Below, in pieces: positions 17,793-22,379 of a DNA stretch of 64,000 nucleotides. Made by a program: the position numbers and the translations under genes. The stretch comes from Saccharomonospora azurea NA-128 (GTDB lineage: Bacteria > Actinomycetota > Actinomycetes > Mycobacteriales > Pseudonocardiaceae): the NCBI RefSeq assembly GCF_000231055.2, contig NZ_CM001466.1, positions 1,768,898 to 1,832,897 on the forward strand, in the 5' to 3' direction. How positions within the stretch are numbered: position 1 is the stretch's first letter; each line of letters starts with the position of its first letter. The notes beneath the pieces were generated by a model. The model ran no database searches, had not been told where the DNA came from, and saw only the letters and a program-made list of their open reading frames with translations.

Positions 17793-18749
<957 letters not shown>

Positions 18750-18752
18750 CTA

Positions 18753-19031
18753 CTACCGTGCGCCGCCGGCGACGGCCGGGAGGATCGTGACGGTGTCACC
18801 GTCCGACACCTCGGCGTCGAGGCCGCCTTCGAACCGGACGTCCTCGTCGTTGACGTAGACGTTGATGAACCGGTGCAGCTTGTCGTCCTTGACCAGGCGC
18901 TCCTTGATGCCACCGTAGTTGGCGTCGAGGTCGTCGATCACCTCGGCCACGGTCTTGCCGGTCACCTGAACGGTCTTCGCACCGTCGGTGTGCGTGCGCA
19001 GGATCGTGGGGATGGAGACGGTCACGGACAT
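18753..19031 (-). CDS. cysO: Sulfur-carrier protein CysO (ubiquitin-like), 92 aa, with Gly-Gly-Ala-Arg end
   Basis: Beta-grasp sulfur carrier of the ThiS/MoaD superfamily: MSVTVSIPTILRTHT, VIDDLDANYGGIKERLV, HRFINVYVNDEDVRF, DGDTVTILPAVAGG. The C-terminal diglycine is converted to a thiocarboxylate that donates sulfur to CysM. Here two extra residues (Ala-Arg) follow the diglycine before the TAG stop, so the protein must be trimmed before it can be adenylated and thiolated. The JAMM peptidase Mec, encoded next door, is the obvious candidate (inference). Confidence 0.95.
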   Translation of the reverse strand: MSVTVSIPTILRTHTDGAKTVQVTGKTVAEVIDDLDANYGGIKERLVKDDKLHRFINVYVNDEDVRFEGGLDAEVSDGDTVTILPAVAGGAR

Positions 19032-19100: not shown

Positions 19101-19553
19101 TCAGCGCGCACCGTCGGCGCCGGCGGGCGGGTATTCGTCGACGATCTGCACTTCTTCCTCGGTGACCTCGCCGTCGACGATGCGGTACGACCGGAACTCG
19201 TACGTGTCCGGTTCCCGGGTCGACACCAGCACGTAGTGCGCGAACGGCTCCTGCGCCAGCTTGATGTCCGTGCGCGAGGGATAGGCCTCGGTCGCGGTGT
19301 GCGAGTGGTAGATCACCACGGGCTTCTCGTCCCGGGAGTCCATCTCCCGGTACAGCTTCAGCAGGTCACCCGAGTCGAACTCGTAGAAGGTCGGTGAGCG
19401 GGCGGCGTTGACCATGGGAATGAACCGCTCGGGACGGTCCGTGCCATCGTCCGGGCCGGCGATCACCCCACACGCCTCGTCCGGGTGGTCCCGGCGGGCA
19501 TGCTCGACGATCGCGTCCACGAGATCACGGCGAATCTGGAGCACGGCGCCCAT
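19101..19553 (-). CDS. mec: JAMM/MPN-domain zinc peptidase Mec (CysO-cysteine peptidase), 150 aa
   Basis: JAMM signature IYHSHTATEAYPSRTD (H-x-H-x10-D) with an upstream glutamate in DHPDEACGVIAG. Mec releases cysteine from the CysO-cysteine adduct, the last step of the CysO/CysM pathway. ATG 19551-19553 (MGAVLQIRR) is preferred to the in-frame start 9 codons upstream because it matches the usual family N-terminus. It is followed by cysO and cysM. Here it is preceded by the ClpS-like/DUF2017-like pair, not by the P1 peptidase as in M. tuberculosis. Confidence 0.94.
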   Translation of the reverse strand: MGAVLQIRRDLVDAIVEHARRDHPDEACGVIAGPDDGTDRPERFIPMVNAARSPTFYEFDSGDLLKLYREMDSRDEKPVVIYHSHTATEAYPSRTDIKLAQEPFAHYVLVSTREPDTYEFRSYRIVDGEVTEEEVQIVDEYPPAGADGAR

Positions 19554-19598: not shown

Positions 19599-20144
19599 TC
19601 AGGACTGGTGTGCGGGTTCGTCGTCGCCCGCGGCGAAGGCCACCAGCGCCGCCTCGGCCAGCGCGGTCTGACAGGTCACCAGCCACGTCAGTTCCCGGCC
19701 GCCCTTGCGCAGCGTCACCGTCGGCCAGTCCACGAGAGCGTTCCACCGCGGCCGGGACACGAACAGCGCCTGAGCGTGCCCGAGTGCGCAGAACACGTCC
19801 GGCACCGCGACCTCCGGAATCGTCACCACGGCCGGATCGTCGCCACTGTCGTGGGCGTGGACGAACAGCACGGCGGTTCGCCGGACCGCGTCGAGCACCT
19901 GGCGCCGCATCGCCACGCCGTACCGGGCGCGGAAGGCGTCACTCGCCTCGCGATCGAAGTAGGCGTCCGGGAACAAGCGGCGGTCGGGCAGGGGACGCGG
20001 CCGGCGGGCGAAGCGCCTGCGCTGCCCGGTGAGCGCGCACTCGAGATCGTCGAGCACACCGACCAGGCCGGCCGCGACCGTGCGAGACACGCCCAGCCCC
20101 ACGCCCTGTCCGGCAGGCCACGCCCGGACGTACTCGCCCGTCAC
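19599..20144 (-). CDS. DUF2017-like protein, probable divergent paralogue of the clpS-linked DUF2017 protein, 181 aa
   Basis: GTG at 20142-20144 overlaps the preceding gene's stop by 4 bp (GTGA), exactly as the canonical DUF2017 gene overlaps clpS. By eye it lines up with the DUF2017 protein at 21541. Matching pieces are AAGLVGVLDDLE with [20 protein letters not shown] with [21 protein letters not shown] with [34 protein letters not shown] with the [18 protein letters not shown] region, and a final TW...LAEAALVAF with [11 protein letters not shown]. The function is unknown. The paralogy is my inference from a manual alignment and needs a profile comparison. Confidence 0.6.
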   Translation of the reverse strand: MTGEYVRAWPAGQGVGLGVSRTVAAGLVGVLDDLECALTGQRRRFARRPRPLPDRRLFPDAYFDREASDAFRARYGVAMRRQVLDAVRRTAVLFVHAHDSGDDPAVVTIPEVAVPDVFCALGHAQALFVSRPRWNALVDWPTVTLRKGGRELTWLVTCQTALAEAALVAFAAGDDEPAHQS

Positions 20145-20494
20145 TCGTCCTCCTCGTCGGTCCCGGTCCGCAGCGCCACGACCGCCGCCGTCCTCGCGTC
20201 GGGGTCAGCAGGGTCGACGGGGTCGGCGGAGTCATCGAGGTCGTCTCCGACGTCGGTCTCGGCGAGCGTGGCCCGCACACCGAGCACCTGGATCTCCGCC
20301 ACGACGCGCTCGGCCTCCTCGCGCGTGGCGTACGTCGCCACCCGCGCCGTCCCGTTCCGCTGCGCCTCGTCGGCCAGCGCGACCCCGCGCTGCTCGGCCA
20401 CCCCGCACACGTGCTGGAGCACGAACGCCACACCGGGGAAGCGGTTGACGTCGTCGTGATGCAGGTCGACGGCCCACCCGGATCGGTCAGCCAC
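20141..20494 (-). CDS. ClpS-like adaptor paralogue with acidic C-terminal tail, 117 aa
   Basis: GTG at 20492-20494 overlaps the P1 peptidase stop by 8 bp. Residues 5-81 align almost without gaps to the canonical ClpS at 22095. Shared positions include the Trp before strand 1, D-x-V-N, V-x-x-V-x-Q-x-x-x-G, the G of the H-x-x-G turn, and the ending V-A-x(6)-G-x-x-A-T. Two N-degron pocket residues differ: Asn28 of ClpS becomes His13 and His60 becomes Gln45, while Asp29 is kept as Asp14. A tail rich in Asp/Pro follows. This points to a ClpS fold with altered or lost N-end recognition. Inference from manual alignment. Confidence 0.65.
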   Translation of the reverse strand: MADRSGWAVDLHHDDVNRFPGVAFVLQHVCGVAEQRGVALADEAQRNGTARVATYATREEAERVVAEIQVLGVRATLAETDVGDDLDDSADPVDPADPDARTAAVVALRTGTDEEDE

Positions 20495-21530
20495 GGTCGA
20501 ACACCTCCGGCCAGACGTCGCGATAGGCGGGCAGTCCCGGCACGCCTGTCGCGGCCACCACACCGTGCACCATCGCGCGGGCGAACACCCGCGCCGCCGC
20601 AGCGCACACCCTGTCGAGCGCCGCGGCCGTTCCCGCCTCGCCCACGGGGCCCTCGACTCTCGGCAACGCCTTCTCCCCCGTGGCGAGAGCGAACACCGTG
20701 TCGCCGTCGAACATCGTGTGCGCGGGACGCACGGCCCACGCGATGCCGTCCTGCGCGGCGACGGCGAGCCGGCGACACTGCGCCTTCGACAACGCGGCGT
20801 CGACGGCCACGACACCGATCGTCGTGTTCAGCGGCGTTCCCTCCGGGGAAGAGGGTTCGCCCGGCCGATCCGGCCACCGGGACACGCCGAACTCGCCGTC
20901 GCGTCCGTGTTCGGCGGCGTAGGGAACGCCGGAGGACCGGCGCACCGCCTCACCGGACGCGTTCACCACGGCCAGGGCGCCCACGACCACCTCGCCGGAC
21001 CCGTCGGGATGGGCGACGACCTCGCTGGCCGTGCCGACACCGCCCTTGAGCGAACCGGCTTGAGCACCCGCTCCCGCACCGACCGAACCCTGCCTCACCG
21101 GACCGTCGGTCGCGGCCTCGCAGGCGGCGTACCCGAACGTCCCATCCGGACGGTTGCCCCACTCGCTGCGCGGTAGATCGAAGATCACGGCGGCGGGCAC
21201 GATCGGCACGACGTGCTCGGGCCGCGGGCCCACCGGGATGCCGCGATGCCGCTCGTCCAACCACCGCATCACGCCGTCCGCGGCGGCGAGCCCGAACGCA
21301 CTCCCACCGGACAGACACACGGCGTCCACCGTCTGCACGAGGTTCTCCGGCTCCAGCAGATCCGTCTCCCGCGTCCCCGGCGCACCACCGCGCTGATCCA
21401 CCGCGCCAACGGTGCCCTCCGGCGGCAACACCACCGTGGTCCCGGACGACCAGCCGTCGCCGATGCGGTCGTGGTGACCCACCCGGATCCCGCCCACGTC
21501 GGTGATCGAATTGGACCGCTCCGTCGTCAC
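20487..21530 (-). CDS. P1-family (DmpA/endo-type) peptidase, Rv1333-like, 347 aa
   Basis: N-terminal nucleophile aminopeptidase family: NSITDVGGIRVGHHDRIGDG, VDAVCLSGGSAFGLAAADGVM, GSVGAGAGAQAGSLKGGVG, and the autocleavage/nucleophile segment TPLNTTIGVVAVD where a Thr follows the scissile bond. P1 proteins self-process into two chains and act as aminopeptidases or amidases; the natural substrate is unknown. By order (DUF2017, P1 peptidase, mec) it matches M. tuberculosis Rv1332-Rv1333-Rv1334. It lies 10 bp after the DUF2017 gene and overlaps the ClpS-like gene by 8 bp. Confidence 0.9.
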   Translation of the reverse strand: MTTERSNSITDVGGIRVGHHDRIGDGWSSGTTVVLPPEGTVGAVDQRGGAPGTRETDLLEPENLVQTVDAVCLSGGSAFGLAAADGVMRWLDERHRGIPVGPRPEHVVPIVPAAVIFDLPRSEWGNRPDGTFGYAACEAATDGPVRQGSVGAGAGAQAGSLKGGVGTASEVVAHPDGSGEVVVGALAVVNASGEAVRRSSGVPYAAEHGRDGEFGVSRWPDRPGEPSSPEGTPLNTTIGVVAVDAALSKAQCRRLAVAAQDGIAWAVRPAHTMFDGDTVFALATGEKALPRVEGPVGEAGTAAALDRVCAAAARVFARAMVHGVVAATGVPGLPAYRDVWPEVFDRG

Positions 21531-21540
21531 CGGCCCCGCC

Positions 21541-22098
21541 TCACTCGGTGAGCGCCTGCACGAGCGTGTCCTGCACCCACGTCACCCAGTGGTAGACGCC
21601 CAGGTGCGGGGCGCGCGGATCGTCCTCCGGCAGCTCCTCGGGCATGTCCTCGGTGACATCGAGCGCGGTGCCGAGCGCGAGCCGCACGTCGTTCAACGCC
21701 GCCAGCCACGCGTCGGCCTGCTCGAACGTGAGCCGCACGTCGCCCCCGCGCGGCGGCATGGTCTGCAGCACCACGCGCGCCGCGCTGATCTTCGCGTCCA
21801 GCAGCGCGGGCTCGTGCAGCGACCGCAACGCCGCGGCGGAGTCGAGGGACTCCTTCGACGGGTTGTCCGGATCGAGCCGATGGAAGTCGGGCAGCAACCG
21901 GCCGAGCACCGGGTCGTCCGGCCCCTCGGAGGGACCGGTGCGGATACCGGTCAGCTCGGCGAGCTCGTCCTTCGGAGCCTCGTCGGCGCGCGCCGTCAGC
22001 ATGTCCTCGACCTGGCTCACCAGGCCGCGCACCACGGCGGCTTCCTGCTGCTCGAAACCGCCGACCAACGTGCCGCCCTTGCGGCGCCATTCCCTCAC
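21541..22098 (-). CDS. DUF2017 family protein (clpS-linked), 185 aa
   Basis: GTG at 22096-22098 overlaps the clpS stop by 4 bp. The sequence [20 protein letters not shown] with [49 protein letters not shown] and [15 protein letters not shown] is the typical actinobacterial DUF2017 protein (Rv1332 type) that always follows clpS. It is mostly helical and cytoplasmic. Its function is not established; strict linkage suggests a role with ClpS/ClpC. A second, divergent copy appears to be encoded at 19599. Confidence 0.9.
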
Positions 22099-22379
22099 GT
22101 CTGTTCCATGGTCGCCCACAGGCCCGCCGCGTGGAGTTTCGCGACGTCGCCTTCCACCTTCTCCTTCGTTCCCGACGACACGACGGCCCGACCCTTGTGG
22201 TGAACGTCGAGCATCAGCTTCGTGGCGTGGTCCCTGCTGTACCCGAAGATCCGCTGGAACACGTAGGTCACGTAGGACATCAGGTTGACCGGGTCGTTCC
22301 ACACGATCGTCTGCCACGGTCGGTCCTCGGCGCCGAGATCCGCACCGAGTGTTTCTTCGGCCTCGACGGGCGTGGTCAT
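22095..22379 (-). CDS. clpS: ATP-dependent Clp protease adaptor ClpS, 94 aa
   Basis: ClpS fold: [58 protein letters not shown]. It keeps the N-degron pocket residues (Asn28-Asp29, His60). ClpS binds substrates with N-terminal bulky hydrophobic residues and delivers them to the ClpC/ClpA unfoldase. First gene of the minus-strand operon, divergent from pncB across 133 bp, as in M. tuberculosis Rv1330c/Rv1331. Confidence 0.96.

Follow-up and report, generated by a model that had tools for sequence, protein, structure and literature searches.

A conserved second ClpS–DUF2017 gene pair beside mec–cysO–cysM in Saccharomonospora azurea

In Escherichia coli, the N-terminal extension of the adaptor ClpS enters the ClpA channel and is engaged by the pore loops, and blocking the extension inhibits delivery (PMC9663308, excerpt). 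Leptospira ClpS1 (LinClpS1), a divergent second ClpS, is changed at the residues matching Met40, Met62, His66 and Lys84 and still binds ClpA (Kd 0.44 µM) and inhibits it (PMC12493166, excerpt). Cyanobacterial ClpS2 is likewise a second ClpS paralogue in one cell and associates with ClpC, and in the chloroplast ClpS1–ClpF binary adaptor a ClpS core and an unrelated partner act on ClpC (PMC7966870, excerpt). Here we describe a second, diverged pair of ClpS and DUF2017 genes in a 64,000-nucleotide stretch of the genome of the soil actinobacterium Saccharomonospora azurea NA-128 (the stretch analysed is called the window and its genome G000). The pair consists of a second ClpS-like gene, clpSx (product P0001), and a second DUF2017-like gene, P2x (product P0002), and it stands in the same gene block as the canonical clpS and its DUF2017/AosR-like partner (product P0003).

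The second pair shares with the canonical actinobacterial pair of ClpS and DUF2017/AosR its families, gene order, overlap, and gene block with the peptidase family S58 gene, mec, cysO and cysM. It differs in that clpSx is 28% identical, has H-H-D-D for W-N-D-P and Gln for His66, and is missing the extension, and in that the D-E-L-x-x-L-T-G-I stretch of canonical DUF2017 is absent from the P2x rows shown. Like clpSx, LinClpS1 has a changed His66, an aromatic gatekeeper, Val for Lys84 and, as matched by list order, Ala at the residue matching Met62; unlike clpSx, it retains a 22-residue N-terminal domain, and the excerpt mentions no DUF2017 partner (PMC12493166). Leptospira ClpS1 shows, albeit with its extension kept, that comparable changes in the pocket and at Lys84 can leave a ClpS able to bind and inhibit its unfoldase (PMC12493166, excerpt). 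For cyanobacterial ClpS2, unlike clpSx, N-terminal residue binding has been measured, and no DUF2017 partner is mentioned in the excerpt (PMC7966870). Among systems that join a ClpS to a fixed partner, chloroplast ClpS1–ClpF is the closest analogue, in function only (PMC7966870, excerpt): ClpF has UVR and YccV domains, whereas P2x and canonical DUF2017 have no such Pfam match.

The second pair and its gene block

The second ClpS–DUF2017 pair is conserved and under selection, and its members occur and diverge together. Its first member, clpSx, is a ClpS paralogue. It aligns with the window's ClpS by blastp with 21 identities in 74 positions and one gap (E 4e-9). A profile built from canonical ClpS only (25 sequences) gives clpSx 21.0 bits versus a maximum of 8.9 in 1900 shuffles, which rules out chance similarity as the source of the likeness; 35 of 38 extra ClpS rows score above every shuffle with the same profile. 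All 18 rows of the alignment of clpSx relatives (A3), clpSx included, match Pfam ClpS at E ≤ 1. The product stays below the NCBIfam ClpS equivalog cut-off (29.3 bits versus 86). Its AlphaFold model is confident over residues 11–80, with a predicted local distance difference test score (pLDDT) of 94–98, and the acidic C-terminal tail is of low confidence. Ranks 1–38 of a Foldseek search of the Protein Data Bank (PDB) are all ClpS, and the model superposes on Mycobacterium smegmatis ClpS with a root-mean-square deviation of 1.1 and a TM-score of 0.90 by target length. The original prediction, made from the letters of the window, had likened this 117-amino-acid product to ClpS; profile comparison (Pfam 32 bits, cut-off 23) and the predicted fold both agree.

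By sequence comparison, P2x is a remote DUF2017 homologue, linked solely via its relatives. The predicted resemblance of the 181-amino-acid product to DUF2017 did not appear directly: pairwise comparison with the window's canonical DUF2017 gave E 2.1, no similarity, and searches of Pfam and of NCBIfam, including AosR (NF051854), gave nothing at E ≤ 10. It did appear through relatives, where the profile comparison proposed with the prediction found a match: the profile of P2x relatives aligns with DUF2017 at E 8.1e-7 over 153 columns (hhalign, probability 91.6). Thirteen of the 16 rows of that profile match Pfam DUF2017 at E ≤ 1 (best 2.8e-18), P2x itself being among the three misses. A two-step chain leads from P2x to a place in another genome (G057; E 2.7e-6) that scores 51.4 bits against DUF2017, with a cut-off of 25. 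In alignment A5, 37 of 44 rows match DUF2017 at E ≤ 1e-5; 33 of the 44 are extra-pair rows, so at least 26 of these 33 match. The P2x model is confident (pLDDT 90), and by sequence DUF2017 has no relative with a solved structure.

The genes of the block are as follows.

22095..22379, minus strand: canonical clpS, 94 amino acids (Pfam ClpS 86.1 bits; NCBIfam NF000668 150 bits, cut-off 86)
21541..22098, minus strand: canonical DUF2017/AosR-like gene, 185 amino acids (Pfam DUF2017 186 bits; NCBIfam AosR 236.9 bits, below the cut-off of 260)
20487..21530, minus strand: peptidase family S58 gene, 347 amino acids, between both pairs (Pfam Peptidase_S58 232.8 bits)
20141..20494, minus strand: clpSx, 117 amino acids, with the ClpS core at about residues 5–81 and an acidic tail after it (Pfam ClpS match, blastp match and AlphaFold model resembling ClpS structures, as above)
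19599..20144, minus strand: P2x, 181 amino acids (no direct Pfam match; profile–profile match and chain of intermediates, as above)
19101..19553, minus strand: mec, JAB/MPN peptidase, start uncertain (Pfam Prok-JAB 106.9 bits)
18753..19031, minus strand: cysO, ubiquitin-fold sulfur carrier (open reading frame; homologues in the same order in relatives)
17793..18743, minus strand: cysM (open reading frame; homologues in the same order in relatives)

The names of cysO and cysM and the role of cysO are presumed from the Mycobacterium locus. The stop of the S58 gene (20487–20489) overlaps the start of clpSx (20494) by 8 nucleotides, clpSx and P2x overlap by GTGA, and mec begins about 50 nucleotides after P2x. 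Therefore all could be translated from one message, and clpSx and P2x probably are, together with mec–cysO–cysM. The canonical DUF2017 gene and clpS also overlap by GTGA. The coordinates, strands and both GTGA overlaps were given correctly in the original prediction, which had also rightly placed the extra pair in the same block as the canonical pair, adjoining mec–cysO–cysM.

Distribution, partnership and origin

Two samples were surveyed: 120 Pseudonocardiaceae genomes (46 genera) and 394 genomes of the class, three of them in this family. ClpS is present in 119 of the 120 family genomes, and 30 of the 120, spread over 16 of the 46 genera, have at least two; the proposed survey of the family turned up further extra copies. 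Among the 391 other class genomes, 373 have ClpS, and a second copy occurs in just one (G244, 68% complete), whose two proteins have scores like those of canonical ClpS (85.0 and 79.9 bits). Within the genomes sampled, extra pairs hardly occur outside this family. About 1.7–3.3 kb separate canonical clpS from an extra ClpS gene of the same strand in 21 of the 120 family genomes. Occurrence of the pair is patchy: within another genus of the family, two genomes (G027 and G519; L101 and L103) carry it and in a third (G489; L120) S58 is followed directly by mec. In one genome (G491; L102:3289-4713), two tandem extra pairs separate S58 from mec. The window's genome has a third ClpS–DUF2017 pair (G000:C1, about 750.4–751.1 kb; L100:6393-7123), some 2 kb from a gene that, from its sequence, we take to be htpG-like; pairs with the same neighbour occur in L055 and L115, and the DUF2017 part of L115 looks broken.

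Within the class, the P2x profile matches 223 of 394 genomes, nearly always once each, and the 29 such loci inspected outside the window's genome hold one ClpS and one DUF2017 in canonical arrangement; we therefore rejected the idea that P2x proper is widespread in the class. Further extra DUF2017 genes were listed by the family scan in family genomes having a single ClpS. One locus holds a DUF2017 homologue with no adjoining ClpS (L119:3745-4335), and in one other family (f32; L079, L081, L082, L092 and other loci) a single DUF2017 lies about 0.1–1.3 kb downstream of clpS with no overlap. One genus has a ThiF/MoeB/E1-like gene after S58 and before the second ClpS (L104:3799-4890, L063:6895-8001, L105:3977-5074), in the block that also encodes ubiquitin-like CysO and the JAB peptidase Mec; the best NCBIfam match of the L104 gene, the sole one scanned, is 107 bits, below its cut-off.

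For partnership, 65 ClpS stretches were read in 40 sequences (39 loci and the window), leaving out L049 (same contig as L050), L066, L067 and L068; the assemblies of L057, L066, L067 and L068 contain N runs. A DUF2017 homologue lies within 200 bp on the same strand at 63 of the 65 ClpS genes (25 of 26 canonical, 38 of 39 extra). The two exceptions are L057, a scaffold with N runs, and L059, where the canonical pair is 1.4 kb apart. The 63 include three extra pairs with a fragmentary or broken DUF2017 part (L109, L112, L115), which were excluded from trees and distances. In the partner trees, built from 25 canonical and 35 extra pairs, one branch sets the canonical rows apart in both (100/100), and an identical 14-row mec-locus clade that includes the window appears in both (100/99 and 96/90); the trees otherwise disagree, and many ClpS forks are open. 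Distances of the partners correlate (r 0.89 for 35 pairs, 0.60 for 23 representatives), as they do in a partial Mantel test on 13 representatives that removes canonical-DUF2017 distance as a proxy of species divergence (r 0.66, p 4e-4).

Both genes are under purifying selection. Over core stretches of Saccharomonospora genomes (eight for all genes except clpS, with seven), the median ratio of nonsynonymous to synonymous substitution rates (dN/dS) is 0.167 for clpSx and 0.172 for P2x, compared with 0.201 for S58, 0.132 for aosR, 0.101 for mec and 0.079 for clpS. No internal stops were found in the core stretches of the eight genomes.

The original prediction had the pair duplicated inside one operon. 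A second, diverged pair in the same block is indeed there, but in the best trees the second pairs branch off outside the clade of canonical genes from the family. We read 28 ClpS proteins from six other actinobacterial families, mostly from one of them, at the loci that best match the P2x profile. All 28 have N-D-P, and their spacing, judged by eye, is as in the 25 canonical ClpS of the family, with E. coli position 76 deleted; the majority of extra ClpS have Asp/Glu at position 36 and keep the residue at 76. clpSx itself lacks two features common to the canonical actinobacterial ClpS compared, Pro36 and the one-residue deletion. In wider trees of 35 extra pairs, nine of the 25 canonical family rows and 13 other-family rows, the extra pairs form one side of a branch (DUF2017 100/100; ClpS 97/91, where E. 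coli and Caulobacter fall with the canonical proteins), and a further ClpS branch, at 94/90, holds just the canonical actinobacterial proteins. Constraining the trees to group the extra pairs with the canonical genes of the family lowers the log-likelihood by 6.1 units for DUF2017 and 10.6 for ClpS, with approximately unbiased (AU) test p values of 0.247 and 0.222, so that a within-family origin is compatible with the data. The ClpS tree rests on 72 columns, and long branches in both sets could cause the tree picture. Because a within-family origin is not rejected and long branches could produce this picture, tandem duplication inside the operon is possible, and an older paralogue or acquisition as a unit fits equally well.

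Pocket, docking helix and N-terminal extension

In E. coli numbering, amine binding involves Asn34, Asp36 and His66 (positions transferred from Caulobacter Asn47, Asp49 and His79), the gatekeeper is Met40, and the ClpA-docking residues are Glu79, Glu82 and Lys84 (PMC12493166, excerpt). Canonical ClpS proteins of the family have Asn34, Pro36, His66 and Met40 in 25 of 25 cases each. At positions 34, 36 and 66 clpSx has His, Asp and Gln, so that two of the three are changed, and it retains the residue at position 76 that is deleted in the canonical proteins. The pocket changes named in the original prediction (His13 for Asn, Gln45 for His, Asp14 kept) are all present. Across the eight Saccharomonospora members, His66 is replaced by Gln, Met40 by Phe or Tyr, and Met62 by Ala in all eight, and Asn34 by His (six), Asp (one) or Ala (one). 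The 38 extra ClpS proteins have Asp35 throughout, Asp/Glu36 in 31, Asn/Asp34 in 29 and His66 in 17, and Met62 is replaced by Ala or Thr in 29. The docking positions of clpSx hold Glu, Glu and Val; Glu82 is retained in all 37 readable extra ClpS, and Glu79 in six of the eight genus members, the window's included.

Ahead of the conserved Asp, clpSx has 13 residues versus 28 in the window's ClpS; start codons here are predictions, and the clpSx frame is open further upstream inside S58. Where S58 bounds a second ClpS gene (18 genes), no more than 23 residues fit ahead of this Asp if an overlap of up to 20 nucleotides is allowed. With the extension missing and pocket residues changed, the parts for classical delivery therefore appear to be gone from Saccharomonospora clpSx, with the fold and part of the docking helix kept.

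The H-H-D-D motif at the pocket (window 20450-20461, minus strand; clpSx residues 12–15) is a possible metal site. In E. coli numbering, position 33 is His in 24 of 38 extra ClpS versus none of 25 canonical ones, and PDB titles list M. smegmatis ClpS solved with Ni2+ or Mg2+ and dipeptides.

Possible roles of the pair

We put at about even the chance that clpSx is a non-delivering adaptor or a competitor that works with its own partner, P2x. It would still dock on the N-domain of a ClpC-type unfoldase; the window's genome has an open frame of 893 codons, with two copies of the Clp_N repeat, that we take to be ClpC. Having no extension and, in this genus, no amine-binding Asn and His, clpSx would not deliver N-degron proteins in the usual way. 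It would carry P2x to ClpC or keep P2x from it, P2x being a client as a relative of AosR; alternatively, P2x would be a co-adaptor alongside clpSx. clpSx would also compete with ordinary ClpS for ClpC, and co-translation of the pair with mec–cysO–cysM would link this arm of proteolysis with sulfur and redox metabolism. Of this scheme, we infer the docking on ClpC, the binding of P2x and the influence on the cysteine pathway. Two 241-amino-acid open frames with tandem Clp_N (G000:C1 934360-934722 and 3205816-3206280), too short for the ATPase parts of ClpC, are possibly ClpC2-like.

Several observations weigh against a non-delivering adaptor with its own partner. Asn/Asp34 and His66 are both retained in 15 of 38 extra ClpS, so pocket loss is no rule for all of them, and Asp at position 34 is present in M. 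smegmatis ClpS too. The other 21 extra ClpS genes, which lack S58 as a boundary, say little on extension length, far-upstream starts being possible in several. Docking may be weak or lost, because position 84 is aliphatic in all eight genus members and Glu79 is kept in just 18 of 37 readable extra ClpS; Lys or Asp occurs at position 84 in none of the 37. DUF2017 is the weaker half of the claim because the canonical-only DUF2017 profile sets just eight of 38 extra rows apart from shuffles and scores the window's P2x at −0.4 bits, within their range. The role of P2x as client or co-adaptor is a guess, since its DUF2017 match comes only via relatives and its model has no convincing match in the PDB. 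Finally, mec-locus extra pairs are not one clade in either partner tree (three and five label changes).

clpSx could instead be a true delivering adaptor with another N-degron specificity, merely tuned by P2x. The 15 extra ClpS with both pocket residues, the Asp/Glu at 36 in 31 of 38 and the invariant Asp35 speak for this, as does the difference in N-terminal residue preference between cyanobacterial ClpS1 and ClpS2 (PMC7966870, excerpt). We nevertheless consider it unlikely: the extension is short in the window and in the 18 S58-bounded genes, two of three amine-binding residues are changed in the genus, where the gatekeeper is aromatic in all eight members, and the leucyl/phenylalanyl transferase family has no match in the window's genome. 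The missing extension, which is used in delivery, also makes the delivering role doubtful in the "second adaptor-partner module" of the original prediction, of which the second, diverged pair itself stands. Nor do we favour a ClpS fold that has left proteolysis, with clpSx and an AosR-like P2x forming a regulatory complex for the cysteine operon, although mec–cysO–cysM directly follows the pair in the window and in most relatives shown, and the NCBIfam family closest to the canonical partner is AosR, an oxidative-stress transcriptional regulator (score below cut-off). Eight extra pairs have no mec, cysO or cysM found in the fetched stretches (L055, L061, L064, L065, L069, L100, L106, L118), mec is more than 4 kb away in L058 and L060, and Glu82 of the docking helix is invariant; such a complex seems a minor prospect. 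That the extra copies are decaying and functionless is very improbable. Away from the mec locus, some copies do seem broken or incomplete (L109, L112, L115), and the site is empty in G489 while congeners carry the pair; for the mec-locus copy, however, decay is largely refuted by a dN/dS of about 0.17, the absence of internal stops in eight genomes and the retention of both genes together.

The strongly altered second copy of the pair points to the two proteins acting as a unit, of which one family would have built extra versions. Beyond the non-delivering reading of clpSx, we hold more tentatively that ClpS and DUF2017 may form a two-part machine in actinobacteria, an adaptor with a dedicated co-adaptor or client, which Pseudonocardiaceae would have multiplied into parallel, mutually insulated pairs, up to three per cell, each steering ClpC to another job without classical N-degron delivery. 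In the actinobacterial loci that we examined, clpS has DUF2017 next to it or close by, and extra pairs nearly always have both genes, which argues for joint action; the extra pairs are a natural variant set for finding the contact surface and the job. In clpSx, a ClpS core has stayed under selection after loss of the classical delivery parts, and gene context ties the second pair to CysO/Mec cysteine synthesis.

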